Made by a program: the position numbers and the translations under genes
Part shown: positions 13,614-26,304 of the stretch, piece after piece
Layout of the letters: each line of letters starts with the position of its first letter
Position numbering within the stretch: the first letter of the stretch is position 1
Source: Verrucomicrobiota bacterium
Lineage (GTDB): Bacteria; Verrucomicrobiota; Verrucomicrobiia; JADLBR01
Reading direction: 5' to 3'
DNA length: 35,136 bases
Assembly (NCBI GenBank): GCA_029560585.1
Contig: JAKQKQ010000119.1
Location: 1 to 35,136 of the forward strand
Notes under the pieces: model-generated
Seen by the model: the letters and a program-made list of their open reading frames with translations, nothing else
What the model was told of the DNA's origin: nothing
Database searches by the model: none

Positions 13614-16600
13614 TCAGCGTGGTGTGGTGCCGCCGATGGCCCGCTGATGTTGCTGTTTCTCAAGTTCGACGAAGATCTCGCTGAGCTGGTCCCATGATTT
13701 TCTGGGTGGACGGGGGCCCTTGACCCATTCGACGTGTCGTCCGCGCCAGATGGAGTAGATGGCGGGCACGATCTCCAGGGTGAGGATCGTGCTCGTGATC
13801 AGGCCGCCGACCATCGGGGCGGCGATGCGCTGGATGGCCTCGGCGCCGGCCCCATGCGCCCAGAGCGCGGGGACGAGGCCGAGCGTGATCATGGAGACGG
13901 TCATCAGCTTTGGGCGGACGCGCTGGACCGCGCCGTACGTAATCGATTCAAAAAGATCGTGCTGGGTCCTCATGCGCCCCGCCCGCTGATAGGCGTGAAA
14001 GGCCTCATCGAGGTAGATAATCATCACCGTGCCGGTCTGGGCGGCGAGCCCGGCGAGGGCGATGATGCCAACCCAGACGGCGATGCTCAGGTTGTAGCCC
14101 AGCAGCCAGAGCAGCCAGATGCTGCCGGTCATGGCGAAGGGAATCGACAAGAGGATGATGAAGGTCTCGGGGATGCTCTTGAAATTCATGTAGAGGAGTA
14201 CGAAAATCAGAGCGAGGGTGACCGGCACCACCAGCTTGAGGCGTTCGCGCACCCTGAGCATGTGCTCGTATTGGCCGGACCACTCCAGCCGGTAGCCGGC
14301 CGGCAGCAAACCCGCCTTTTCGATCTTCTCCGCCACCGCCCGCTTGGCCTCATCGACATAACCGCCGATATCGCGCCCGGCCATGTCCACGTACACCCAG
14401 CCGGTGAGCGAGCCGTTCTCGTTCCGGATGACCGGCGGGCCGGTGGTGGTACGGATGTCCACCAGTTGCCCGAGCGGAATCTGCTGGAGTCCCCCCGCGC
14501 CGGCGGGCGTGCCCGCCGCGACCATGCCGTCGGCGCCCGTCGCCGCGCCGCCCAGCGGGGCGGACAGGACTGGGACGAGCACGCGCTTGAGCTTGTCCGC
14601 GTCGTCCCGTAGCTCTCGGCTGTAGCGGACGTTGATCGTGTAACGCTCGCGTCCCTCGATGGTGCGCGCGATCGCCATGCCCCCGATGGACGTCTCCACC
14701 TGCATCAGGACGTCCTCGACGTTGAGTCCGTATCGGGCGATCTCCGAACGGATCGGAACGATGTCGATGTAGTAGCCGCCCGTGGTGCGCTCGGCGAACA
14801 CGCTGCGCGTGCCGGGGATCTCGCGCATGACGGACTCAATGTGTTCGCCCAATTTTCGAATCTGCTCGAGGTCGGGACCAAAGATCTTGATGCCGATCGG
14901 CGTCCGGATGCCCGTGGTCAACATGTCGATGCGACCTTTGATCGGCATGGTCCAGGCATTCACCTGGCCGGGGATTTGGAGCGCCTCGTCCATCTCCGTG
15001 ATCAGCTCGTCCCAGCTCATGCGGCGCATGTCGGGCCAGATCTTGCGAAAGCCCTTCTGGATCCATTCCGGCGCCCAGCCCGAGTACCAGCGTGGGCGGG
15101 GGATGCGGCGCCATTCCTTTTCGGGCTTCAGCTGCACGACGGTCTCGAACATTTCCATCGGCGCGGGATCCGTGGCGGTCTCCGAGCGGCCCGCCTTGCC
15201 GTGGACCGTGAGCACCTCGGGGAATTGTCTGAGGATGCGGTCCTGGATCTGCATCACCCGCGTGGCCTCGGTGATCGACATGGTGGGCATCGAGGTCGGC
15301 ATGTAGAGGATGGTCCCCTCGTTGAGCGGCGGCATGAACTCCGAGCCAAGTCGCTTGTAGATGGGATACGAGGAGGCGACCAGGAGCACCGCGATCGCGA
15401 TGGATAAGACGCGTCGCGTCATGAGCATGCTGACCCACGGGTAGTAGATCCTGTGGAGGAAGCGGCTGATGGGATGCCTGTGCTCGGGGATCACCCTGGC
15501 GCCGGTCATCAGGACGATCAGGGCCGGGCCGATGGTCAGGGAGAGGAACGCGGCCCAGGCCATCGTGAAGGTCTTGGTGAAGGCCAGAGGCTTGAAGAGC
15601 CGTCCCTCTTGCGACTCTAGGGTGAAGACCGGCATGAAGCTGACGGTGATCACCAGCAGGGCAAAGAACAGCGGTTTGCCCAGCTGCTTGCACGCCGCGA
15701 TGATGATCTCCTGCTTCTGTTTGCGGCCCAGGCCGGGCGGGGCGTGCTCGAGGTGCTTGTGGACATTTTCCACCATCACCACGGCCTCGTCGCAGAGCGC
15801 GCCGATGGCGATGGCGATGCCGGCCAGCGACATGATGTTTGCCGTCAGCCCCATGAAATACATGGGGATGAAAGCGAGCGCCACCGCGATGGGCAACGTG
15901 ACGATGGCCCGCGCGGCGCCACCGAAATCCAGCAGGAACACGATGACGATGATCGAGACGATGATGGATTCCTCGATGATGGTGCGCGTGAGGGTGTGAA
16001 TGGAGCGGTTGATGAGATCGGAGCGGTCGTAGGTGGTCACGATCTCCACGCCCTCCGGGAGCGATGGTTTGACTTCCTCCAGCTTGGCCTTGATGCGGTC
16101 GATGACCTGCAGGACGTTCTGCCCGAATCGCACCACGACGATGCCGCCGGTGGTTTCCCCCTCGCCGTTAAAGTCGGCCGCGCCGCGCCGCATCTCCGGG
16201 CCGAACGCGATGTTGCGGGCCACGTCCTTCAGCAAGACGGGCGTCCCCCGCGCGTCGGCACCGACCACGACGAGGCGCAGGTCCTCCAGCGACGTGATGT
16301 AGCCCTTGCCCCGGATGAGGTACGTCGTGCCGTTCCGCTCCATCTCGCGACCGCCGACGTCGTTGTTGGCGCTGCGGATGGCGGATACGACCCGGCTGAT
16401 GGGGACGCCATAGGCGAGCAGCCTGTCGGGATCGATCTCCACCTGGTACTGCTTTTCGAAGCCGCCGATCGTGGCCACTTCGGCGACGCCCTCGACGCTC
16501 TGTATCCAGTAGCGGAGGTGCCATTGTTGGAACGACCGCAGGTCCGCCAGATCACGTTTGCCGCTCCGGTCCACCAGCGCGTATTGGAAGCCCCATCCGA

Positions 16601-17054
16601 CGCCGGTGGCATCGGGCCCCAGCGTGGGGGTGACGCCCGGCGGCAGGTTTCCGGCCAGACCCTGCATGTACTCCAGCACGCGGGACCGCGCCCAGTAGAT
16701 GTCCGTGCCGTCCTTGAAGATCACGTACACGAACGAGTAGCCGAAGAAGGAATAGCCTCGCACCGTTCGGACGTTCGGGGCGCTGATGAGCTTGGTGACG
16801 ATGGGATAGGTGATCTGGTCCTCGACCAGATTGGGGCTGCGTCCCTCCCACTGCGTGAAAACGATCACCTGTACATCGGTCAGGTCCGGAATGGCATCCA
16901 AGGGCGTGTTGCGCAGGCAGAAGACGCCCCCGACGGTGAGCGCGCCCACCAGCAGGAAGACCATGAACTTGTTGCGCGCGCTCCATTCGATGATGCGCTC
17001 GACGAGGGCATCCCTTTGTGGCGGCGGCACCTGGGGTGTGGCGTTATCAGGCAT
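13614..17054 (-). CDS. cusA: CusA/CzcA-type heavy-metal efflux RND pump, probably copper/silver
   Basis: A 1,146-residue inner-membrane proton-driven transporter of the HME-RND family. It has the TM1 region near residues 30-50, the CzcA/CusA signature NTPLDAIPDLTDVQVIVFTQ, the first porter domain (GYSFFGYSFVYVIFKDGTDI), and the TM4 proton-relay segment IAIGALCDEAVVMVEN with Asp422. Methionine-rich positions typical of the Cus branch are present: EFMPPLNEGTILYMPTSMPT and RIDMLTTG (Met711), equivalent to the region of the E. coli CusA methionine cluster, so Cu(I)/Ag(I) is more likely than Co/Zn/Cd. An Ala/Gly-rich insert (GGAATGADGMVAAGTPAGAG) lies in the second periplasmic half. It starts 14 bp after the adaptor gene and is the last gene of the metal operon. 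Substrate specificity is inferred. Confidence 0.95.
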   Translation of the reverse strand: MPDNATPQVPPPQRDALVERIIEWSARNKFMVFLLVGALTVGGVFCLRNTPLDAIPDLTDVQVIVFTQWEGRSPNLVEDQITYPIVTKLISAPNVRTVRGYSFFGYSFVYVIFKDGTDIYWARSRVLEYMQGLAGNLPPGVTPTLGPDATGVGWGFQYALVDRSGKRDLADLRSFQQWHLRYWIQSVEGVAEVATIGGFEKQYQVEIDPDRLLAYGVPISRVVSAIRSANNDVGGREMERNGTTYLIRGKGYITSLEDLRLVVVGADARGTPVLLKDVARNIAFGPEMRRGAADFNGEGETTGGIVVVRFGQNVLQVIDRIKAKLEEVKPSLPEGVEIVTTYDRSDLINRSIHTLTRTIIEESIIVSIIVIVFLLDFGGAARAIVTLPIAVALAFIPMYFMGLTANIMSLAGIAIAIGALCDEAVVMVENVHKHLEHAPPGLGRKQKQEIIIAACKQLGKPLFFALLVITVSFMPVFTLESQEGRLFKPLAFTKTFTMAWAAFLSLTIGPALIVLMTGARVIPEHRHPISRFLHRIYYPWVSMLMTRRVLSIAIAVLLVASSYPIYKRLGSEFMPPLNEGTILYMPTSMPTMSITEATRVMQIQDRILRQFPEVLTVHGKAGRSETATDPAPMEMFETVVQLKPEKEWRRIPRPRWYSGWAPEWIQKGFRKIWPDMRRMSWDELITEMDEALQIPGQVNAWTMPIKGRIDMLTTGIRTPIGIKIFGPDLEQIRKLGEHIESVMREIPGTRSVFAERTTGGYYIDIVPIRSEIARYGLNVEDVLMQVETSIGGMAIARTIEGRERYTINVRYSRELRDDADKLKRVLVPVLSAPLGGAATGADGMVAAGTPAGAGGLQQIPLGQLVDIRTTTGPPVIRNENGSLTGWVYVDMAGRDIGGYVDEAKRAVAEKIEKAGLLPAGYRLEWSGQYEHMLRVRERLKLVVPVTLALIFVLLYMNFKSIPETFIILLSIPFAMTGSIWLLWLLGYNLSIAVWVGIIALAGLAAQTGTVMIIYLDEAFHAYQRAGRMRTQHDLFESITYGAVQRVRPKLMTVSMITLGLVPALWAHGAGAEAIQRIAAPMVGGLITSTILTLEIVPAIYSIWRGRHVEWVKGPRPPRKSWDQLSEIFVELEKQQHQRAIGGTTPR

Positions 17055-17068
17055 GGTGTCACGTGAAT

Positions 17069-18376
17069 CTAGTGCTTGTGTTCGCCGCCCTCGCCCATGC
17101 CGGCGATCGCGGCCTTGAGCTGGCTTTCCGAATCCACGAGGAACAGGGCACGGGTGACGACTTTCTCTCCCTCCTTCACGCCATCGAGCACCTCGTAATC
17201 GTCATCGGTCCTGGCCCCGACCTTCAGTTCGCGGGGTTCGAGGTGGCCGTCGGGGCCATCGACGAAGGCGATGAGGCGAAGGCCGGTGTCGATGACCGCG
17301 CTGGCCGGGATGAGGACCTTTTCCCCGAGGGGGATCTGGATCGCGACGCTGGCCCACATGTCCGGGCGCAGCAGGTGCCCGGGGTTGTCGAGCTCAAGCC
17401 GCACGCGACCGCGCCGTGTCTGGGGATCGATGTGCGGGTAGATGAAAGTGATGGGCGACGCGATGGTCTTGTTGCCGAGGTAGGGAAACGTGATGGTGGC
17501 TAGCAGGCCCGGCTTTATCAGTGGAAAATCAGATTCGAATACCCAGGCGTCAAGCCACAGGTGGGAGAGGTCGGCGACGTCGTAGAGCGCCTCGCCAGCC
17601 ATGAACGCCTTGCCCTCGACGGCCATCTTGGCGACGACGTGGCCCGCGATCGGCGACCGAAAGAGCATCTCATCGCTGGCCGTGCCGCGTTGCTCGAGGG
17701 AGCGGATCTCGTCGTCGCCGATCTCCCAGAGTTCGAGCCGGCGGCGCGCGGAGCCGAGGAGATTGGCGGCGGCGCGGCGCTGTTCGGCGGACGCGTCGGC
17801 CCTCAGTTGCTGGACGCCACGCCAGGCGATCAGGTACTCGTTCTCGGTGGAGAAGAGCTCCGGGCTATAGACCGTGAAGAGTGGCTGGCCCTTTTCGACC
17901 GGCGCGCCGGTGAAGTTGACGTGCAGCGTTCGCACCCAGCCGCCGAATCGTGGTGCGATTCGGGCGTAGCGGGTCTCGTCGTGCGTCACCACTGCGGTGG
18001 TCCGGACAATGGGCGTGAGCGCTCGCTTCTCGACCTTCGAGAGCGACAGGCCGATCAGTTGTCGCTTCTCGGGTGAAAGGCTGACGCTGATCCGGCCGGG
18101 GACGCCGGAGGCATCCTTCGCGACCGCGCCGTGGCCCTCGTGCCCGCTGCCCGGCGGCTTGTCCTCCTTGATGGGCACGAGCTTCATGCCGCAGATGGGG
18201 CAGTCACCCATCGTGTCACTCACGTAGGTGGGGTGCATCGGACAGTGGTATCGCTGTGCCTTGGCGCCGCCATCATGCCCCGCGTCCGCCGCGCCGTGGC
18301 GCCCGCAACCCGCGACCGGCAGGGCGAGCAGCACGGCGATGGCCATTTTGAAGAGGATGCTAGCGTTTCGTTCCAT
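17069..18376 (-). CDS. cusB: CusB-type periplasmic adaptor (membrane fusion protein) with N-terminal heavy-metal-binding domain
   Basis: A 435-residue membrane fusion protein linking the RND pump to the outer-membrane channel. The N-terminus is a lipoprotein signal with lipobox VAGC (Cys24). It is followed by a His/Asp-rich stretch and a compact metal-binding domain (residues 43-69; YHCPMHPTYVSDTMGDCP, then ICGMKLVPI), the CPMHP/CPICGM pattern of the heavy-metal-binding domain seen in CusB and P1B ATPases. The rest shows the hairpin and barrel regions of HlyD-like adaptors (TAVVTHDETRYARIAPRFGG, GHVVAKMAVEGKAFMAGEAL). The C-terminus ends GGEHKH, a possible extra metal ligand set. Its start lies inside the end of the cusC-like gene (17-bp overlap), and cusA follows after 14 bp, so the three are co-translated. 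Best read as the adaptor of a Cu/Ag efflux system. Confidence 0.94.
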   Translation of the reverse strand: MERNASILFKMAIAVLLALPVAGCGRHGAADAGHDGGAKAQRYHCPMHPTYVSDTMGDCPICGMKLVPIKEDKPPGSGHEGHGAVAKDASGVPGRISVSLSPEKRQLIGLSLSKVEKRALTPIVRTTAVVTHDETRYARIAPRFGGWVRTLHVNFTGAPVEKGQPLFTVYSPELFSTENEYLIAWRGVQQLRADASAEQRRAAANLLGSARRRLELWEIGDDEIRSLEQRGTASDEMLFRSPIAGHVVAKMAVEGKAFMAGEALYDVADLSHLWLDAWVFESDFPLIKPGLLATITFPYLGNKTIASPITFIYPHIDPQTRRGRVRLELDNPGHLLRPDMWASVAIQIPLGEKVLIPASAVIDTGLRLIAFVDGPDGHLEPRELKVGARTDDDYEVLDGVKEGEKVVTRALFLVDSESQLKAAIAGMGEGGEHKH

Positions 18377-19850
18377 GGGTCACCTTTGGGGCTTTGGGTT
18401 TCTTGGGCAAATCGGGTTTGGTGGGCGAGGTCGTGGGCAGCACGGGCGCGTCCCGGGGGGGTAAGCCGGCGACGAGCAGGGAGAGATCCGCGAGGGCGAG
18501 TTCGCGCTCGGTCTGCGCCTCCAGGGCCTCGATCTCGACATTGAGCACCGTGCGCCACGTGTCGATGAGGTTGAAAAATTCGGTCTTGCTGGCGAGGTAG
18601 CTGGAGCGCGCGACCTCGAGGGATTCCCGGGTCTTGGGTCCCACGACATCGCGGGCGAGGGTGAGATTGCGGCCAGCCTGGCGAACCATGAAGCTCTTCT
18701 CCGCCAGTTCGGCCGCGAGGCGGATCTCTTCGGCGGAGAGGCGCGCCTCGGCCGCGCCTTTAGTTGCCTGCGCGTCGGCGATCTGCGCGGCTATTTTATC
18801 GCGCCAGATGGGCAGCGTGAGACTGAATCCGGGGCGGTACATGGTCGGGGCCGCGAGGGCGTCCGCCTCGAGCCCGACGGAGACATCCGGCCATCTCTCC
18901 CTGCGCGCCGCCCGGATCAGCGCCTCGGCGCGGCGGACGTCGGCCTCCATGGCCCCGATCCTGGGGTTGCGCGAGAACGCTGTGGCGAGGATCTTGTCAA
19001 CGTCGATATCCGCGGGACTCATCTCGAAGTGGAGGGGTGGGGACGGATCGGGATCCGTCTTGCCGAGGCCGAGCGCGGCCTTGAAGGCGGCAAGGAGCGG
19101 TTTGCGCGAATCGTCGAGGTTTGCGATCTCGTTGCGGACGCGGTCCTCCTCGATCTGGGCACGCAGGACATCCTGGGCGGTCACCTTGCCGACCTCATTC
19201 TGCCGCCGGGCGATCTCTTCGAGATCGGCCGCGAGTTCGAGCGCCTTTCGCTCGACCCGGATTTTTTCTTCGAGGAACTGAAGCTGGTAATAGGCGCGTT
19301 TGAGGCCGTTGGCGGCCTTCAGCACCGCCAGTTCGAAGGCAAAGTATTTCGATTGGCTTTCGGCGGAAGACGCCTGGCCCCGTGCGCTGAGTTTCGCCAG
19401 GACGGGAAAATCCATCATCAGGCCCGGCATGATGGTTTGGACGATCCTGGTGATGTCGGTCTCGAACGTGAGGCGTGGATCGGGGAGAGATCGCGAGACG
19501 GTGATTCGCTCGACGGATGCGAGCCAATCGAAATAGGCGGCCTCCACGGCTGGCTGGTTGAGCATGGCGAAACGGAGCAATTCAGCGAGGCCCGACTTCG
19601 GTGAGGGCGGTGTCAGCTTTGGCTTTTGGCCGGGTGGGCGGTAGGCGCCAGCCAGCGCCGCCGCGGCCTGGCGGGCCTGTTGTTCGCCGGGTGCCGGTAC
19701 GCCGGTGCAACCGGTGACCAGGGCCAGCAGGGCGAGCGCCGTGAGCCACGTCAGGGTGGCTGGCCGGAATGGCCCGATGCCATTGGCCGGTCGCTCGAGC
19801 AACCATACCGCAGGGGGAGGGAACGTCTGATCGCATTGCTCGACAGTCAT
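18360..19850 (-). CDS. cusC: CusC/TolC-family outer-membrane efflux lipoprotein
   Basis: A 496-residue outer-membrane factor forming the exit duct of the tripartite pump. After a longish N-terminal region it has a signal sequence with lipobox LVTGC (Cys48), then two TolC-type coiled-coil repeats (around SRSLPDPRLTFETDI and RNPRIGAMEADVRRAEALIR) rich in Ala, Glu and Arg. ATG at 19850 was chosen because AGAGGA (complement of 19858-19863) lies 7 bases upstream; an in-frame extension to 19946 has no such support and would overlap the preceding gene. The C-terminus has a Pro/Lys-rich tail (TSPTKPDLPKKPKAPKVTHG). It starts 68 bp after the sensor-like gene and overlaps the adaptor gene by 17 bp. The symbol reflects position and role; close orthology to E. 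coli CusC was not tested. Confidence 0.92.
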   Translation of the reverse strand: MTVEQCDQTFPPPAVWLLERPANGIGPFRPATLTWLTALALLALVTGCTGVPAPGEQQARQAAAALAGAYRPPGQKPKLTPPSPKSGLAELLRFAMLNQPAVEAAYFDWLASVERITVSRSLPDPRLTFETDITRIVQTIMPGLMMDFPVLAKLSARGQASSAESQSKYFAFELAVLKAANGLKRAYYQLQFLEEKIRVERKALELAADLEEIARRQNEVGKVTAQDVLRAQIEEDRVRNEIANLDDSRKPLLAAFKAALGLGKTDPDPSPPLHFEMSPADIDVDKILATAFSRNPRIGAMEADVRRAEALIRAARRERWPDVSVGLEADALAAPTMYRPGFSLTLPIWRDKIAAQIADAQATKGAAEARLSAEEIRLAAELAEKSFMVRQAGRNLTLARDVVGPKTRESLEVARSSYLASKTEFFNLIDTWRTVLNVEIEALEAQTERELALADLSLLVAGLPPRDAPVLPTTSPTKPDLPKKPKAPKVTHGTKR

Positions 19851-19918: not shown

Positions 19919-20383
19919 TCAATGAACACACATGCCGCCCTTGCACTCGCAGGGGCTGAACACCCGCGCTCTCATCATCGCGGCGTATCGTCGGCCCTGC
20001 TCGGGGGGCATGGCTGCGGCGACGGCTTGCGCGTGCCGCAGATAAAGCCGCTGTGATTCAAAGCGGAGGTCGGCTGCCTCGCGCAAGGCCGCATCGAGCC
20101 CGGACGAGTAGCCCGTTTCCTCTTTCGCAAATTCGCCGATGCGGCGGCGATTTGCGGCGACCCGACGGCACAGGTCTTCGCAGGCGGGCTTATAGGAGTC
20201 GTGCAGGGTCCGGACGCGGGCGAACGTCTGATCGTCGAGGGCGAATTCCCGTTTGAGCCAGTCCATGGTGCTCTCGCACGGCGGCCGCGCGCCACAGTCG
20301 GGCCGCTGGATGCGCGAGCCGGCCACGAAGGCCGCGGATCCCAGCATAATCGCCAAGGCCAGCAGCAAGAGAGTCCGTCTCAT
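19919..20383 (-). CDS. Periplasmic heavy-metal sensor (CnrX/Spy-like)
   Basis: A 154-residue protein with an N-terminal membrane anchor or signal (MRRTLLLLALAIMLGSAAFVAG) and a helical periplasmic part resembling the CnrX/Spy 'metal_resist' fold: long Arg/Glu/Ala-rich helices, LHDSYKPACEDLCRRVAANR in the middle and YLRHAQAVAAAMPPEQGRRY near the end. Several Cys, His and Met residues could bind metal, including DCGARPPC near the start and the C-terminal CECKGGMCVH. In Cupriavidus metallidurans, CnrX senses metal and, with the anti-sigma factor CnrY, controls the ECF sigma factor CnrH. The same three-part set is adjacent here. ATG at 20383 overlaps the stop of the upstream gene as ATGA and is preceded by GGAGGA. 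An extension to 20590 is possible in frame but would run through the previous gene. Confidence 0.83.
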   Translation of the reverse strand: MRRTLLLLALAIMLGSAAFVAGSRIQRPDCGARPPCESTMDWLKREFALDDQTFARVRTLHDSYKPACEDLCRRVAANRRRIGEFAKEETGYSSGLDAALREAADLRFESQRLYLRHAQAVAAAMPPEQGRRYAAMMRARVFSPCECKGGMCVH

Positions 20384-20727
20384 GGGTCCTCCACGTGTTG
20401 CGCCGCCAACGTGTACGGGTCCAGGGAATCGACGTAGGCGATCTGAAATTGCGTCCTCGGATCGGTCCCGGCGGCTTTGTCGTGCCACATGCCCAGCACG
20501 AAACCGGCAATCAGCGCGAGCGCTGGCAGGGCCGCGGCAAAGCGGATATCGGCGGCGAGCCATTCGCAGGCCTGCCTGAGCCACAGCCACCGGCCCTTGC
20601 GGCGCTCTTCATTCAAACGGATGCGGCGCCAGACGTTCGCCTGGAATCCGGGCGGCACTTCAACATCCACCCTCCAGGCATTCATGGCCCGCCCCAGCTC
20701 TGGGTCGTTTGTCCTTTGCGCTTTCAT
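20380..20727 (-). CDS. One-TM protein, putative anti-sigma factor (CnrY-like position)
   Basis: A 115-residue protein. The first 60 residues are cytoplasmic-type, with the segment MNAWRVDVEVPPGFQANVWR followed by RIRLNEERRKGRWLW; one TM helix follows (about 66-84, FAAALPALALIAGFVLGMW), then a short periplasmic tail. No classical zinc-binding anti-sigma domain (HxxxCxxC) is visible. The anti-sigma assignment rests on topology and position: it is encoded between an ECF sigma gene and a CnrX-like sensor gene, and CnrY is likewise a small one-TM anti-sigma protein. Its stop overlaps the start of the sensor gene by four bases, so the two should be made in fixed ratio and may form a complex. It begins 84 bp after the cysteine-rich gene. 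The sequence itself is not one I can place in a named family. Confidence 0.72.
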   Translation of the reverse strand: MKAQRTNDPELGRAMNAWRVDVEVPPGFQANVWRRIRLNEERRKGRWLWLRQACEWLAADIRFAAALPALALIAGFVLGMWHDKAAGTDPRTQFQIAYVDSLDPYTLAAQHVEDP

Positions 20728-20811: not shown

Positions 20812-21150
20812 TCAATGGGCGCAGGCGGGGGAGCACAGCATCACCGTGCGCGTCTCCTTGCTGCCGGCTTTCGTGACCCGGACGCGGAATTTGCAGCCGG
20901 GGCAGCGGTGTTCCTGGACGTATCGTGTGCCGAAGGAGCGCTCCTTGCTATCCAGAGGGACGCGAACTGCCGTCAACTCGCGCCTGCAATGCTGGCACTT
21001 CATGTGCTCGCCCCCCGTGGCCTGATGGGTGGCATAGATCGGTCCGACCCCGAACCTCTCACCCTTGGACGTGTTCTCTGCACGCGCCTGAATGGCCACG
21101 AGGCCCAGGGCCGCCGCCCCGAGCAGGCTGATCCAACGAGTCGTTATCAT
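20812..21150 (-). CDS. Secreted cysteine-rich small protein of unknown function
   Basis: A 112-residue protein with a signal peptide (MITTRWISLLGAAALGLVAI, cleavage probably after QARA). The mature part of about 88 residues has two CxxC pairs, CQHC and CPGC, about 38 residues apart, a histidine near each (GGEHMKCQHC, VQEHRCPGC), and a C-terminal CSPACAH. Such clusters suggest bound zinc or copper, or a redox role; this is inference. It is the second gene of the metal operon, 111 bp after the sigma factor stop and 84 bp before the anti-sigma candidate, so a job in metal sensing, periplasmic metal binding or pump delivery is plausible. ATG at 21150 is preferred to an in-frame start at 21195 because the signal peptide starts there; AGGA lies 12 bases upstream. 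I do not recognise the family. Confidence 0.75.
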   Translation of the reverse strand: MITTRWISLLGAAALGLVAIQARAENTSKGERFGVGPIYATHQATGGEHMKCQHCRRELTAVRVPLDSKERSFGTRYVQEHRCPGCKFRVRVTKAGSKETRTVMLCSPACAH

Positions 21151-21261
21151 ATGTGTCTGTGATCCTTTCTGATTGAGTCTGATCGGCGGCCACATCGACC
21201 GCCTCTAATCCCTACTACACCGCGGGCAGCCCGATCCCTCGCGGCAATTTTTGGAACAAGG

Positions 21262-21831
21262 TCACATGAATGGGCCAATTCGTTTTCTCACCTCTGCCCG
21301 CGCGCGGTACAGGCGCATTTCCACCGCCTTTCTCGAGCAGCCGGCGACGCGCGCAATTTCCTCGTGCGACAGGCACTCGTATTCGGACAGGATCAGGGCA
21401 ACCCTCATGTCTTCGGGCAACCGCGCAACGGCCTTCCGGACCACGTCCGATAGCTCTCGGCTCGTGACCTCCGAATCGGGGCGTGGGCTGGTGTCGGGCG
21501 GGTCCGGGATGCCCTCGTCCTCGCCCCGGCCGAGCCGCTCGGTGGGGTGCCGGGCCCGCCAGCGGTTGTGGTTGCGGGCGAGGTTGGCCGCGATCGTGAA
21601 AAGCCATGCCCGGAAGCTCGATCCCGGCCGATAGCGGGCACGGTGTTCGTAGATGCGCACGAAGGCCTCCTGCGCGAGGTCAACGGCGTCGTCAGGGTCG
21701 CCCACGAGTCGGGCCAGGAAACGCACGGTGGCCTTCTGCCACCGGTCCATGATCTCGCCGAGCGCGTCGTCGTCGCCCGAGCGCAGGCGCCGCATGGCCT
21801 CGTCATCCGCGCTGATTTGCTCCGGGATCAT
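21262..21831 (-). CDS. ECF-family RNA polymerase sigma factor
   Basis: A 189-residue sigma70-family factor of the extracytoplasmic-function type. Region 2 is visible as DAVDLAQEAFVRIYEHRARY followed by FRAWLFTIAANLARNHNRW. An acidic/proline linker (GRGEDEGIPDPPDTSPRPDS) follows, then region 4: LPEDMRVALILSEYECLSHE, EIARVAGCSRKAVEMRLYRA. No extra C-terminal domain is present. It is the first gene of the metal operon and most likely directs its transcription in response to metal, being held by the one-TM protein encoded two genes downstream (CnrYXH-like logic). The start at 21831 lacks a clear Shine-Dalgarno site but leaves only a short tail before region 2. The 134 bp between opgH and this gene should hold the promoter; I could not fix -35/-10 boxes by eye. 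Confidence 0.93.
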   Translation of the reverse strand: MIPEQISADDEAMRRLRSGDDDALGEIMDRWQKATVRFLARLVGDPDDAVDLAQEAFVRIYEHRARYRPGSSFRAWLFTIAANLARNHNRWRARHPTERLGRGEDEGIPDPPDTSPRPDSEVTSRELSDVVRKAVARLPEDMRVALILSEYECLSHEEIARVAGCSRKAVEMRLYRARAEVRKRIGPFM

Positions 21832-21965: not shown

Positions 21966-24155
21966 TCATGCGGCGATGGGCCGCCGGTACGCGTCGACCG
22001 CCCGCCGCCAGTGCGGGGCAACGTCGCGGAAGGCGGATGCCCAGATCTTGCGATGCATCGTGATCATGACCTGGGGGTCGCTGAGCAGCGTGCGCACCTC
22101 TTCGTCGGTCAGGCCCGTCGCGCCCTGCTGGACGAGGCGATCGGCGAGCGCCTGAAGGTTCTCGTCGTGGTCTGCGCCGCTGGCCTCTTGGAGCGAGACG
22201 TGCACGCCGTTGACATAGGGGTCGATGACCGCGGCGGTGAGGCCAGCGAAGGCGGGATCGGCTGGGCTCGGCAGGGCGGGTGGCACATTGGCGAGCGCGT
22301 GGTCGAGTTCGACGAGTTCCGGTGCGGGCGAGGATTGAGCGGGGGTGAGAAGCACGCCCATGCGCCGGAGCCACTGGCCGGGGGCGGGCAAGCTGGTGAT
22401 CACTGAAAACGGTATCGAGACGAGCAGGCCGAGCAGGACGGGGCTGAGCCACCAGAAGAGCATCCGGCTTGTTTCCCACGCCAGGGCGGCCCATGCGACG
22501 GCGAGGAGCGTCTGTCCGCCATGAGCGGCGATCGCCTCGACCCATCCGGTGCCTTCGCCGGCACCGCGCTTCTGGGCCTTCCATTCGACGGATCGGCCGA
22601 GGAACATGAAGAGGATGAATCGGCTGTGGAACAACATCAGCACGGGCGCGACGAGGGTCGAGAAGACGAATTCGATCGCGATGCCGACGGCCGTCTTGAA
22701 GAGGCCACCGAAGAGGCGCGCGCGTGCGGGGTTTGCGGCGAGCAGCAACCAGGCCAAGAGCTTGGGGCCCAGGAGCAGCACGAGGGTGATGAAGAAAACG
22801 AGGAGGCCATGCTGGAGGAGCGAGAGGTGGACAAATTCGCCGACGAACCCCTGGGCCGGCAGTATCGTGGTGAGGCCGCTCCAATTGTGGTCGATGGCCA
22901 CCCATGTGCTGAGGGCGAGGAACATCAGCCAGAGTGGCGAGGCGAGATATCCCAGGATGCCCATGAGCAGGTGGACTTTGTTGGCGGGGTGGAGGCCTTT
23001 GGAAAAAAGCAACCAGGTGTGCTGGAGGTTGCCCTGGCACCAGCGGCGGTCGCGCTTGGCGCTCTCGATGAGCGATTGGGGGCCTTCCTCCCAGCTCCCC
23101 TCCAGTTCGTAAAGCAGCCAGACCTCCCAGCCCGCCTTGCGCATCAGCGCGGCCTCCACGAAATCGTGGCTGAGGATCTTGCCGCCGAAAGGCTCGATCC
23201 CCGGCAGGTCCGGCAGGTCACAATACTCGATGAATGGCTCGAGGCGAATGACGGCGTTGTGGCCCCAGTAATTGCCGACGCCGCATTGCCAGAAGTCGAG
23301 GCCGGCGCAGAACATGCGCCCGTAGAGACCATTGGAAAACTGTTGGATGCGGCCCCAAAGGGATTCTCCTCCGAAGATGCGGGGCGCGGTCTGGAGGATG
23401 CCGATGCGGGGGTTGGCCTCCATCAGGCGGGTCATGCGCACGATGTCGGCGCCGGCCATGACGCTGTCGGCGTCGCAGACGATCATGTACGTGTAGCGCC
23501 CGCCCCAGGTGCGGCAGAAGTCGGCGATGTTGCCGCTTTTCTTGTTCACGTTGTCGCGCCGATGCCGGTAGAAGATCCGGCCGAAGCCGCCGACCTCCCG
23601 GCATAGGTGGACCCAGGCCATCTCCTCTTCGACCCAGCGGTCGGGGCTGCGGGTGTCGCTGAGAACGAAGAACTCAAAGCTGCCAAGTTGTCCCTCGCGC
23701 TCGATCGACCGGTAGATGGCGCGGAGGCCGGCGAAGACGCGCGCGACATTCTCGTTGTACACGACGAAGACCAGGGCGGTGGTCGGGATCGACTTTTTGG
23801 AGGGCGGTGCCTCGGGCGGAGGGTAGCCGCCGCGCCGCTCGCGCGGGAACATCAGCAGGAAACCGACGAGTGCGTGGATGAAACCCAGGCAGAGCATGGT
23901 GAACAAGATGCAGAAGAGGCCGAACAGCAGGAGGCGTGCGCCGTTGAACCCGAGGCGCCAGAGGAAATCGGCCATCAGCACGCATCCGGCCAATGAGAGG
24001 ACGCCCGCGGAGCCGAACACCAGGATCAGGCGCCATGCGGGGTGGCGGTCGAATCGGGGGTGCGGGGCGGGGGGAGTCTCTGGAGGACGGCTGGTGGCCG
24101 CGCCTGCGAGTGGGCCGGCATCGGCTGGCGGTGCGCTGTCGTCCACCGGTTTCAC
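21966..24155 (-). CDS. opgH: Glucans biosynthesis glucosyltransferase OpgH (MdoH), short form
   Basis: A 729-residue inner-membrane GT2 enzyme that polymerises UDP-glucose into the backbone of osmoregulated periplasmic glucans. Two TM helices (about 42-62 and 74-102) precede the catalytic loop: VVYNENVARVFAGLRAIYRS (131-150), the DAD motif at 228-230, LSHDFVEAALMRKAGWEVWL, and RDRRWCQGNLQHTW. Several more TM helices follow, then a cytoplasmic C-terminus with a LLSDPQVMITMHRKIW segment resembling E. coli OpgH. The start is GTG at 24155, overlapping the preceding stop as GTGA; the frame stays open to 24497 but that part is compositionally an out-of-frame shadow of the 195-residue gene. Compared with E. 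coli OpgH (847 residues), the long N-terminal cytoplasmic domain is missing. Sugar specificity is assumed from the family and the opgG neighbour. Confidence 0.93.
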   Translation of the reverse strand: MKPVDDSAPPADAGPLAGAATSRPPETPPAPHPRFDRHPAWRLILVFGSAGVLSLAGCVLMADFLWRLGFNGARLLLFGLFCILFTMLCLGFIHALVGFLLMFPRERRGGYPPPEAPPSKKSIPTTALVFVVYNENVARVFAGLRAIYRSIEREGQLGSFEFFVLSDTRSPDRWVEEEMAWVHLCREVGGFGRIFYRHRRDNVNKKSGNIADFCRTWGGRYTYMIVCDADSVMAGADIVRMTRLMEANPRIGILQTAPRIFGGESLWGRIQQFSNGLYGRMFCAGLDFWQCGVGNYWGHNAVIRLEPFIEYCDLPDLPGIEPFGGKILSHDFVEAALMRKAGWEVWLLYELEGSWEEGPQSLIESAKRDRRWCQGNLQHTWLLFSKGLHPANKVHLLMGILGYLASPLWLMFLALSTWVAIDHNWSGLTTILPAQGFVGEFVHLSLLQHGLLVFFITLVLLLGPKLLAWLLLAANPARARLFGGLFKTAVGIAIEFVFSTLVAPVLMLFHSRFILFMFLGRSVEWKAQKRGAGEGTGWVEAIAAHGGQTLLAVAWAALAWETSRMLFWWLSPVLLGLLVSIPFSVITSLPAPGQWLRRMGVLLTPAQSSPAPELVELDHALANVPPALPSPADPAFAGLTAAVIDPYVNGVHVSLQEASGADHDENLQALADRLVQQGATGLTDEEVRTLLSDPQVMITMHRKIWASAFRDVAPHWRRAVDAYRRPIAA

Positions 24156-24739
24156 CAGAGGAAGAAGACGAGTCCCGTGACGATGGAGGCGACGAGGGTC
24201 CAGGAGATCATGGCGCGGATGATGGGCGTTCTGTTGAGTGACTCCCAGGTCTGCGACGCGCCGGTGACGATGGCTGAGAGTTCGATGGGGCGCGGTGTCA
24301 TGGTGCGCTTCTGGAACTTGGGGCCGGCGTTGAGGTAGCTGCGCCGCATGCGCTCGACGAATTCCTCGGGCCATGGTGGGTCGGCCAGAAAATATCGCTC
24401 CCAGCGGCCCGGCATGTCGGCGAGGAAGAGCGCGAGGCGCCCGCGGCCCGCGATGCGCTCTTTGGGCAGCTTGACGTCGAGGACGCGCTCGAACCATTCG
24501 GCGACGAGTTTTGCGGTCGACTGCATGGCGAGGACCTGCGGCTCGCCGCCGGATTGCTTCTGCATGTCGGCGGCGCGCTTGAGAACGCGGTACACGAGGC
24601 GGCTGAGCAGCAGCTTATTACGGATCCTGAGCGCCGAGAAATAGGCCTCGACGCGGGCGTAGGCCTCGTCCCATCCATCCAGGCCGGCCTCCCACGCCGC
24701 ATCGGCGGGCGCGGTTACAGCTGGGTCCGGTACGTCCAT
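24152..24739 (-). CDS. Membrane-anchored protein encoded between opgG and opgH, unknown function
   Basis: A 195-residue protein: about 170 hydrophilic, probably cytoplasmic residues rich in Arg, Glu and Trp (LLLSRLVYRVLKRAADMQKQ, WFERVLDVKLPKERIAGRGR) and a single C-terminal TM helix (about 175-194, MISWTLVASIVTGLVFFLW) ending at the stop. Its start overlaps the end of opgG by 25 bp and its stop overlaps the opgH GTG by 4 bp, so the three are translationally linked. The downstream OpgH lacks the long N-terminal cytoplasmic domain of E. coli OpgH (the region reported to bind FtsZ); this protein may supply it in trans or be an unrelated accessory. I see no clear sequence match to the E. coli N-terminus. 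The start at 24739 has no strong Shine-Dalgarno site. Confidence 0.8.
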   Translation of the reverse strand: MDVPDPAVTAPADAAWEAGLDGWDEAYARVEAYFSALRIRNKLLLSRLVYRVLKRAADMQKQSGGEPQVLAMQSTAKLVAEWFERVLDVKLPKERIAGRGRLALFLADMPGRWERYFLADPPWPEEFVERMRRSYLNAGPKFQKRTMTPRPIELSAIVTGASQTWESLNRTPIIRAMISWTLVASIVTGLVFFLW

Positions 24740-26304
24740 GTCTCGGAAAGATAATCCTCGCCGGACTTGAGGCAGCAGCGCAGTTCGATGGGGCCGATTT
24801 GGGCGGGGGGCGTGTTGGTGCTGGCGGGCCGGACCTCAAAACTCGCCCGCCAGATCCCGTTGAAGGGATTTCGCAGGGTGCGCACGTTTTCGACCGAGAC
24901 GGGCGCACCGTTGGCCACCGTCACGACGGCATCGGGCGGCTTCTCGGATGGCAATTCGCGCAGGCGCGGGCCGTCGAACTCGACGATCATGAAGCGCACG
25001 CCGGGGGCCCAGGGGTGCGTGCCGCTGCGCGTGGCGACGGTCCAGCAGGCGGCGCCGGCGGGATTCTCCATCATGCCCCAGGTCTGCCGATAGGAATACC
25101 GGAACGGTTTGAGCGGTTGGGGCGTCGCGTCGGGAATCCAATACACGACGACGTTGTCTGCGAGTTCCTCTTGTGTTGGCAGTTCGACGAGCCGGACCTC
25201 ACCGGGGCCCCAGTCGCTGGTGGGTTCCACCCAGATGCTGGGCCTCTGGTGGTAGAGTGCCTCGAGGTCCTGATAGTTGGCGAAGCTGCGATCGCGCTGG
25301 AGGAGGCCGAAGCCCTTGACGCCATGGAGCTTGAAGGAGTGCGTCTCGATGCGCGGGGGATTGTTGGAGGTGGGGCGCCACATGCACTCGCCGCTGGCGG
25401 TTCGAATCGCAAGCCCGTCGGAATCGTGGACCTCCGGGCGATAGTCGTCGAAGCGCTGGCGGGAGTTCTCGCCGAACCAGAACATGCTGCTGAAGGGGGA
25501 GACGCCGACGACCGCGGATACTTTTCGGAAGAAGAGGGAAGCATGGACAGCGACGGTCGTGGGATCGCCGGGGGCGATGTCGAACTGGTACGCGCCGGCG
25601 ACGCTATCGGAATCCAGCAGGGCGAAGATCGTGATGGTGCGCTGCGTCCCCTCGGGTTTACCGACCCAGAATTCCCTGAAGATGGGGAATTCTTCGGTGA
25701 TGCCGGGAAGGGCGCAGTTGAGTGCGAGGCCGCGGGAGGAGAGGCCGTAAACGTTGCCTTTGCCCAGCGCGCGAAAATAGCTGGCCCCCTGGAAAACGAT
25801 GGCCTCGTCGAAGACGTCTGGCTTGTTCAGTGGGAAGTGCAGGCGCAGGCCGGCGTAGCCCAGGGTGGGTGGCAGGCTCGAGGTCATGCCGCTGCGGCTG
25901 TAGTCGAAGAAGTCCTGGACGAACCGGAGACGCTGGCAGTGGGTGTGCGTGAATTCGTTGATGTGAACCGGCTGGGTGAACAGGTATCCGAGATGGAAGA
26001 GGTGCATCTGGAAGTTGAGGTTCTCGGACTTCCAGATGGCGCGTTCGGGCAGGAATCGGATGGCCCGGTACTGGTCGTACTTGAGGGCCGAGAGGATCTT
26101 CATGGCGGAGGCATCTTCGCCGCGCGGCGCGTCTGGCCGATAAGGCCCTTGGGCCAGTCGCTGGGCGATCTCCTCGACGTAGGCCAGGTCGATCTTGACG
26201 CGTTTGATGGCGTCCTGGGCCGAGGAGGTGTCCGGGGCGGCCGCGGCCAGTAAAAAGACCGCCGTCAGCCCCAAGCGAAGGCCTTGATCAGGAATGGACG
26301 GCAT
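24715..26304 (-). CDS. opgG: Periplasmic glucans biosynthesis protein OpgG (MdoG)
   Basis: A 529-residue periplasmic protein needed for osmoregulated periplasmic glucan synthesis, thought to act on the nascent chain exported by OpgH. The signal peptide is MPSIPDQGLRLGLTAVFLLA with cleavage near SSAQ. Family-like stretches run throughout: LKYDQYRAIRFLPERAIWKS, LFHLGYLFTQPVHINEF, FQGASYFRALGKGNVYGLSS, FPIFREFWVGKP, SPFSSMFWFGENSRQRFDDY, RPEVHDSDGLAIRTASGE, RDRSFANYQDLEALYHQRPS and VVYWIP. Length is close to E. coli OpgG (511). OpgG and the related OpgD are hard to separate by eye; the opgH partner supports OpgG. ATG at 26304 gives a normal signal peptide. It is the first gene of the opgG-orf195-opgH unit and is divergent from the PH-like gene across 106 bp. 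Confidence 0.94.
   Translation of the reverse strand: MPSIPDQGLRLGLTAVFLLAAAAPDTSSAQDAIKRVKIDLAYVEEIAQRLAQGPYRPDAPRGEDASAMKILSALKYDQYRAIRFLPERAIWKSENLNFQMHLFHLGYLFTQPVHINEFTHTHCQRLRFVQDFFDYSRSGMTSSLPPTLGYAGLRLHFPLNKPDVFDEAIVFQGASYFRALGKGNVYGLSSRGLALNCALPGITEEFPIFREFWVGKPEGTQRTITIFALLDSDSVAGAYQFDIAPGDPTTVAVHASLFFRKVSAVVGVSPFSSMFWFGENSRQRFDDYRPEVHDSDGLAIRTASGECMWRPTSNNPPRIETHSFKLHGVKGFGLLQRDRSFANYQDLEALYHQRPSIWVEPTSDWGPGEVRLVELPTQEELADNVVVYWIPDATPQPLKPFRYSYRQTWGMMENPAGAACWTVATRSGTHPWAPGVRFMIVEFDGPRLRELPSEKPPDAVVTVANGAPVSVENVRTLRNPFNGIWRASFEVRPASTNTPPAQIGPIELRCCLKSGEDYLSETWTYRTQL

Follow-up and report, generated by a model that had tools for sequence, protein, structure and literature searches.

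A small secreted cysteine protein encoded in a putative ECF sigma factor-controlled copper/silver-defence operon of a Verrucomicrobiota bacterium

The window analysed here, a stretch of 35,136 nucleotides on contig JAKQKQ010000119.1 of a Verrucomicrobiota bacterium, carries on its minus strand, in this order, genes for an ECF sigma factor, a small secreted cysteine-bearing protein (the Cys protein), an anti-sigma candidate, a CnrX-like sensor, an outer-membrane factor, a periplasmic adaptor, and an RND pump (Table 1). There are overlaps between the anti-sigma and sensor genes and between those of the outer-membrane factor and the adaptor, and a gap of 84 nt separates the Cys gene from the anti-sigma gene. 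No terminator-like site was found in this gap, where the hairpin was no better than those of shuffled sequences (z 0.97), and the operon is presumably read as a single transcript. The anti-sigma candidate had no match in Pfam and only a match at E 0.022, to an antisigma model, in NCBIfam, and the adaptor has an N-terminal CPMHP...CPICGM segment. Upstream of the sigma gene, at 21966-26304 on the minus strand, are genes that, from their sequences, we take to be MdoG/MdoH-type glucan biosynthesis genes; a genome of the same genus has 80-85% identical counterparts, also upstream of its sigma gene.

Table 1. Coordinates of the operon genes, of the sites in the Cys protein, and of the promoter-like motif in the window
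Feature	Position	Strand	Description
ECF sigma factor	21262..21831	-	189 aa; Sigma70_r2 2.7e-15 and Sigma70_r4_2 1.2e-14, over cut-off
ECF-promoter-like motif	21215..21240	-	GAGGGATCGGGCTGCCCGCGGTGTAG; first gene downstream is the Cys gene
Secreted Cys protein gene	20812..21150	-	112 aa; ATG at 21150; stop included, ends 20812
Signal-peptide-like N-terminus	21079..21150	-	Residues 1-24 of the Cys protein; by inspection
CQHC	20986..20997	-	Residues 52-55 of the Cys protein
CPGC	20893..20904	-	Residues 83-86 of the Cys protein
CSPAC	20821..20835	-	Residues 106-110 of the Cys protein, within C-terminal CSPACAH (106-112)
CnrY-like anti-sigma candidate	20380..20727	-	115 aa; one TM segment (by inspection); position
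CnrX-like periplasmic sensor	19919..20383	-	154 aa; PF13801 1.2e-10; C-x3-C site; CECKGGMCVH tail
Outer-membrane factor, TolC/CusC-like	18360..19850	-	TIGR01845 1.8e-9, under its cut-off
Periplasmic adaptor, CusB/CzcB-like	17069..18376	-	TIGR01730 over cut-off; CusB model 1.8e-33, under cut-off
CusA-like RND pump	13614..17054	-	TIGR00914 over cut-off; M585, M635, M711

The first-pass annotation of this DNA had described an open reading frame with a mature part of about 88 residues, carrying CQHC, CPGC and a C-terminal CSPACAH and placed between an ECF sigma gene and an anti-sigma candidate, and these features and the placement were all confirmed. The putative cleavage site, found by inspection, falls between ARA and ENT and leaves a mature part of 88 aa. 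A genome of the same genus (L004/L005, JADLBR010000575.1) has, in the same gene order and position, a gene for a protein of 68% identity, and L004 was the single locus given by a scan of the species-genome collection for close relatives. Compared with this homologue, the Cys gene has a dN/dS of about 0.24, with dS close to 1; this dN/dS falls within the range of the neighbouring genes (0.19-0.39). Because of the 68% identical homologue in the same slot and this dN/dS, the Cys gene is, as judged by sequence comparison, a real gene constrained by purifying selection and not a chance reading frame.

The description of the family as unrecognised was also supported, since the Cys protein matched no model of Pfam or NCBIfam over cut-off; a match to a rubredoxin-like or other known domain, which had been named as counter-evidence, was absent at that level. 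The best matches below cut-off were DUF4796_N in Pfam (0.0097) and DVU_1557 in NCBIfam (0.0051). Relatives were surveyed within Verrucomicrobiota, and restriction of the family to the phylum is therefore not claimed. A search with the query only gave 8 places in 6 of 286 genomes of the class, the match of one genome (G266, L009/L032) being spurious and discarded as an antisense frame inside a long gene; a seven-row profile gave 13 places in 11 of 387 genomes of the phylum, and a twelve-row profile gave 26 places in 20 of 384 genomes of the class. The query-only and seven-row searches were blind to neighbourhood; the twelve-row profile contains rows from a search for the anti-sigma protein. With tblastn, no match to the Cys protein was found in 72,556 plasmid records. 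The window's own genome (G000) also encodes a paralogue with 14 cysteines (L079, G000:C205:9337-9714), around which the stretch examined holds no sigma, anti-sigma and CnrX-like module. At G000:C170:31704-31919 (L002/L023) lies a fragment of a further copy, in which the C-terminal pair of cysteines is missing.

Seven of the 8 places found by the query-only search, the window included, adjoin sigma, anti-sigma or CnrX-like genes, and the other is the spurious match. Two of these seven lie in the same-genus genome, namely G001:C589 (L004) and G001:C225 (L029), and may be variants of one region; on the contig of L029, where the sigma gene is the only module gene, a second relative lies between MdoH and the sigma gene, and the very similar sigma regions of the two loci may represent strain variants or a single region. 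Of 35 places tabulated besides the window, 18 lie within about 1.5 kb of a module gene. The anti-sigma search was the source of six of the 35 places (G083, G088, G106, G568, G268 and G243), and once these are left out, the count becomes 12 of 29 places, where chance adjacency would, by a rough estimate, give well under 1 of 29. Another 7 of the 29 places lack a module gene over that distance and adjoin a metal RND or P-type ATPase gene, and at 3 the sole such neighbour is a P-type ATPase whose role as a metal pump is unproved. The remaining 7 of 29 have no module, RND or P-ATPase gene in the stretch examined, which for one was a contig of 3.2 kb only and for another 0.7 kb on one side, and one of the seven is a fragment. 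Homologues lying mostly away from metal operons, which the first-pass annotation had said would speak against its proposal, were not the outcome, as a module or a metal RND/P-type ATPase gene neighbours 19 of the 29 places. Its question of whether homologues always sit beside ECF/CnrX-like genes received a mixed answer, in that such modules recur beside relatives in several families of the class, but "always" is false at 12 of 29.

A profile of the anti-sigma candidate (A5) had matches in 133 of 384 genomes of the class. A CnrX-like gene was present at all of the best 30 anti-sigma loci, and a relative of the Cys protein at 12 of the 30, one of them weak (L070, E 0.0019); six of these 12 loci supplied rows to the anti-sigma alignment, so that the independent count is 6 of 24. 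One reading of this pairing is that the Cys protein is a co-sensor, which would present metal to the CnrX-like protein or touch the periplasmic end of the anti-sigma factor, thereby setting the threshold. In most modules examined, the Cys relative indeed lies on the 5' side of the anti-sigma gene, either co-oriented with it or divergent, and in G021 two relatives flank one anti-sigma/CnrX/sigma module (L085/L095, G021:C6:309671-311505). However, 18 of the best 30 anti-sigma loci keep the anti-sigma and CnrX-like genes with no detectable relative, which argues that sensing as such does not need the Cys protein. A YHS-like gene separates the Cys gene from the anti-sigma gene in G041 and G106, and the 7 of 29 places beside a pump or ATPase, with the module gene absent within about 1.5 kb, also argue against a co-sensor, which we regard as unlikely.

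At 15 of these other 18 loci, the slot was occupied by a different small secreted protein, as recognised by a hydrophobicity rule, and a slot protein was not found in L051, L063 and L067. Eight of the 15 are of the "SPRAxxNQ/SPKLRQ ... APLK" kind (L049, L050, L053, L057, L059, L061, L064 and L068), with SPRAxxNQ/TASPKLRQ repeats and an APLK C-terminus, and cysteine is absent from 6 of these 8 proteins. Three are metallothionein-like Cys-rich secreted proteins (L054:1887-2165, L060:1210-1443 and L069:1172-1423), for which a Pfam scan gave no match over cut-off; three are YHS-like (L055, L065 and L071), and one is of another kind (L066). Secreted YHS-like proteins (YPLDTCxVSGxKL) with a promoter-like motif of their own were also seen at L044:1926-2321, L047:1909-2304 and L052:2487-2870, the last of which matches the YHS model under its cut-off. 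Because 15 of the 18 loci hold different proteins, some of them cysteine-free, residence in the slot does not by itself imply that a protein binds metal.

About 65 nt before the Cys gene is a motif of the pattern [AG]AGGG[AT]T-N12-GG[TC]GT[AT], which we infer to be the promoter of the ECF sigma factor. In a dyad enumeration over 26 upstream regions, 3 of which have mis-set start codons (L004 sigma, L040 small and L112) and several of which are related or overlapping (window and L004; both directions of L025), AGGG-N15-GTGT occurred in 7 regions, and in 20 shuffled sets no dyad occurred in more than 4. Known ECF promoter guesses such as GAAC/CGT and TGAAC/GTC, among others, were not enriched in the 26 regions. 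On leaving out each region in turn together with its close relatives, the motif scored at 0 of 500 shuffles in 9 of 17 regions and at 4-6 of 500 in 2 of 17, and it did not stand out in 6 of 17. The site at 21215-21240 is the only one in the window of at least 14 bits. At 21 loci outside the training set, a significant site, defined as one equalled by at most 5 of 100 shuffles, was found upstream of the anti-sigma gene in 18 and in control stretches in 2 of 21, leaving 3 of the 21 loci without such a site; in 16 of the 18, the slot gene is unrelated or missing. The motif is also present at 8 of the 9 loci counted as training. The tie that the first-pass annotation had drawn between the Cys gene and ECF/CnrX-like modules thus gained support, the motif ahead of the gene being a recurrent feature of those modules.

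The strict pattern gave 30 matches in 8 genomes selected as carriers of the Cys family, versus 14 for the reversed control, and in the window's own genome it was no commoner than the control (2 matches versus 2). Thirteen of the 30 strict matches lie within modules and 17 outside, many of the latter apparently unrelated; among those outside, one precedes a gene that by inspection is copper P-ATPase-like (G088, L142), and one precedes a YHS-like gene (L141). The G106 genome has three matches, one each upstream of its Cys, YHS-like and anti-sigma genes.

Two spaced CxxC pairs occur in 23 of the 36 relatives compared, the window included (two or three pairs in each), a single CxxC in 1, and none in 12; of these 12, which mostly have four cysteines, 9 contain CxxM. 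The pairs are lost only in most of a subgroup marked by TTKGxR. In the 12-row subfamily alignment, both CxxC pairs are present in only 2 rows, and the residues invariant in all 12 are T27, K29, G30, R32, C52, K69, C86 and C106. C110 is kept in 11 of 12 rows and C83 in 2 of 12; at position 55, where CQHC has its second Cys, 7 rows have Met, 2 have Cys and 3 have A/T/S; and M-x-C stands ahead of C106 in 8 of 12. Relatives outside the TTKGxR subgroup mostly share "CP-x-C-K ... C-P-x-C" and a C-terminal Cys cluster, and the window protein combines the TTKGxR-like start of one subgroup with the CxxC pairs of the other. The matches of the twelve-row profile that link the subgroups are of modest strength (1.6e-9 to 6.7e-5), and the homology of the two subgroups rests on them; the most distant relatives, those of G033, G051, G164 and G311, could be convergent.

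A second alternative is that the Cys protein is secreted and stabilised by disulfides but serves some purpose unrelated to metal binding, such as envelope protection under copper/thiol stress. Two disulfides would be possible with the four cysteines found in most members without CxxC, and some of the unrelated slot proteins that share this motif have no cysteine. The two or three CxxC pairs of 23 of 36 relatives, however, suit soft-metal ligands better, as do Met55 and the M-x-C sequence in their respective 7 and 8 of 12 rows, and we consider this alternative unlikely. The fold model, built from two sequences, is of low confidence (pLDDT 61.5); with it, Foldseek gave no significant match (best E 0.66), and the best Z in a VIA structure comparison was 4.6, with none at or above 5. 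Zinc-ribbon-like domains (NrdR N-terminus, PNGase and eL42) have two spaced CxxC pairs as in the Cys protein, and resemble the model weakly over the CxxC...CxxC part (Z 3-4). The match to these domains was not significant, however, and the pairs that they share with the Cys protein are those missing from 12 of the 36 relatives.

Evidence on the metal came from the pump and the sensor. The RND pump scored 1036 bits with CusA versus 463 bits with ZneA, and its M585, M635 and M711 align with M573, M623 and M672 of Escherichia coli CusA, which we take to be the methionine triad for Cu(I)/Ag(I); on these results, a Cnr-type identity for the pump was rejected. Among 15 RND pumps near the loci, picked by sequence pattern, 12 have the Met triad and 3 are CzcA-like without it, namely that of G135, which is the only RND pump examined in that stretch, and the second pumps of G088 and G106. 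At about residues 418-430, the window's pump has GALCDEAVVMVEN, a segment with a Cys and a Glu, where CusA has GAMVDAAIVMIEN.

The profile of the sensor family (A4) matched NccX (4clv) at 2.3e-13 and CnrX (3zg1) at 7.4e-13. We take the Ni/Co ligand set of CnrX to be H42, H46, E63, H119 and M123, with positions mapped by alignment. None of 35 CnrX-like sensors has H42, H46 or M123, whereas 33 have Cys at CnrX positions 70 and 74 (Cys-x3-Cys), both exceptions being from G148; 31 of the 35 have His at position 63, and 29 keep H119. The sensor also has a Cys-rich tail, CECKGGMCVH, at 19919-19951 on the minus strand, with CECGSGMCLH at L004:2503-2532; this tail is missing from 6 other sensors aligned, one of which ends in CCH. 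The CusA-like pump with its Met triad and the changed sensor ligands argue that the metal is probably Cu(I)/Ag(I), not nickel/cobalt, and the nickel/cobalt frame of the Cnr and Nre systems, with which the first-pass annotation had compared the operon, was not supported.

These features may be read together as an ECF-run copper/silver-defence operon with the Cys protein as its first product, a secreted periplasmic Cu(I)/Ag(I) ligand serving as a buffer or chaperone, and we give this reading an even chance of being correct. It draws on the conserved gene, the export signal seen by inspection, the pairing with the module, the shared motif, the CusA-type pump and the changed sensor site, all of which were read from the DNA and its translations. 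In the proposed mechanism, the membrane anti-sigma factor would hold the ECF sigma factor and would have as its partner the CnrX-like periplasmic sensor with its cysteine-type site. Loading of the sensor with Cu(I)/Ag(I) would free the sigma factor, which would lead to transcription from the motif at 21215-21240. The first product of the operon would be the small exported Cys protein, whose two CxxC pairs and C-terminal pair would bind soft metal in the periplasm and buffer Cu(I)/Ag(I), and which would perhaps hand metal to the CusBA-like pump encoded downstream. From gene order and the shared promoter-like motif, the Cys protein probably binds metal outside the cytoplasm, and we infer a role as buffer or chaperone in preference to sensing. 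Metal binding or hand-over by the Cys protein is the least supported step of the mechanism, because the cysteines of a secreted protein could form disulfides, the slot often holds unrelated proteins, and the fold model is weak. A periplasmic metal ligand, as the first-pass annotation had suggested, appears to be the best reading, shifted to copper/silver and widened to take in a whole module with its shared promoter-like motif in place of one gene.

Several known systems resemble parts of this operon. Like CnrYXH and NccYXH of Cupriavidus, it combines an ECF sigma factor, a small membrane anti-sigma candidate and a CnrX/NccX homologue with a heavy-metal RND pump; unlike them, it has a CusA-type pump, sensors with C70/C74, an extra secreted Cys protein, and the shared promoter-like motif. 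CusCFBA and SilCFBA are similar in having CusCBA-like pump genes with a small exported protein that could feed the pump, whereas they have a two-component system where the window's operon has an ECF sigma factor. The site of CusF is made up of Met, His and Trp, and the Cys protein differs from CusF/SilF in having cysteines; CusF was not among its matches in Pfam up to E 10 or in NCBIfam up to 0.1. CopM of Synechocystis (copMRS/copBAC) is an exported protein that is induced by copper, is encoded together with the regulator of an HME-RND pump, and gives resistance by copper binding (PMC4335983). CopM has DUF305 domains and a two-component regulator (PMC4335983), whereas DUF305 was not among the Pfam matches of the Cys protein. 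Bufferins (Buf1/DUF2282 and Buf2) are small exported precursors that sequester copper, and Buf1 clusters with sigma-factor genes (PMC12452194). That the Cys protein is itself such a precursor, a secreted and post-translationally modified cysteine peptide sequestering copper under ECF control, is highly improbable. It is likewise small, exported, cysteine-bearing, ECF-linked and copper-related, but DUF2282 is not among its Pfam matches up to E 10, and the gene for the MNIO enzyme (PF05114) was not found in the window's genome (G000, 95.7% complete) and was present in only 3 of 8 genomes searched.

A literature search returned no mention of the Cys family or of a CnrX module in Verrucomicrobiota, and an earlier mention is possible. 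More broadly, and with somewhat less than even confidence, we tentatively propose a widespread copper/silver ECF system of Verrucomicrobiota, in which a CnrX with a thiol site, a CnrY-like anti-sigma factor and an ECF sigma factor reading one conserved promoter would drive a fast-changing slot of small secreted proteins, comprising the Cys family, metallothionein-like Cys-rich proteins, YHS-like proteins and the "SPRAxxNQ...VAPLK" family. Such interchangeable exported proteins would form a layer for metal handling, equivalent to the bufferins but without a modifying enzyme. The analysis turns an odd single reading frame, of a family without a Pfam or NCBIfam model, into a testable regulon, and the promoter-like motif points to partners of the Cys family in other genomes. 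The ligand swap in the CnrX variant suggests re-use of a nickel/cobalt sensor fold for soft metals. If the proposal is true, a set of unannotated small secreted proteins of Verrucomicrobiota would become assignable to copper/silver defence.
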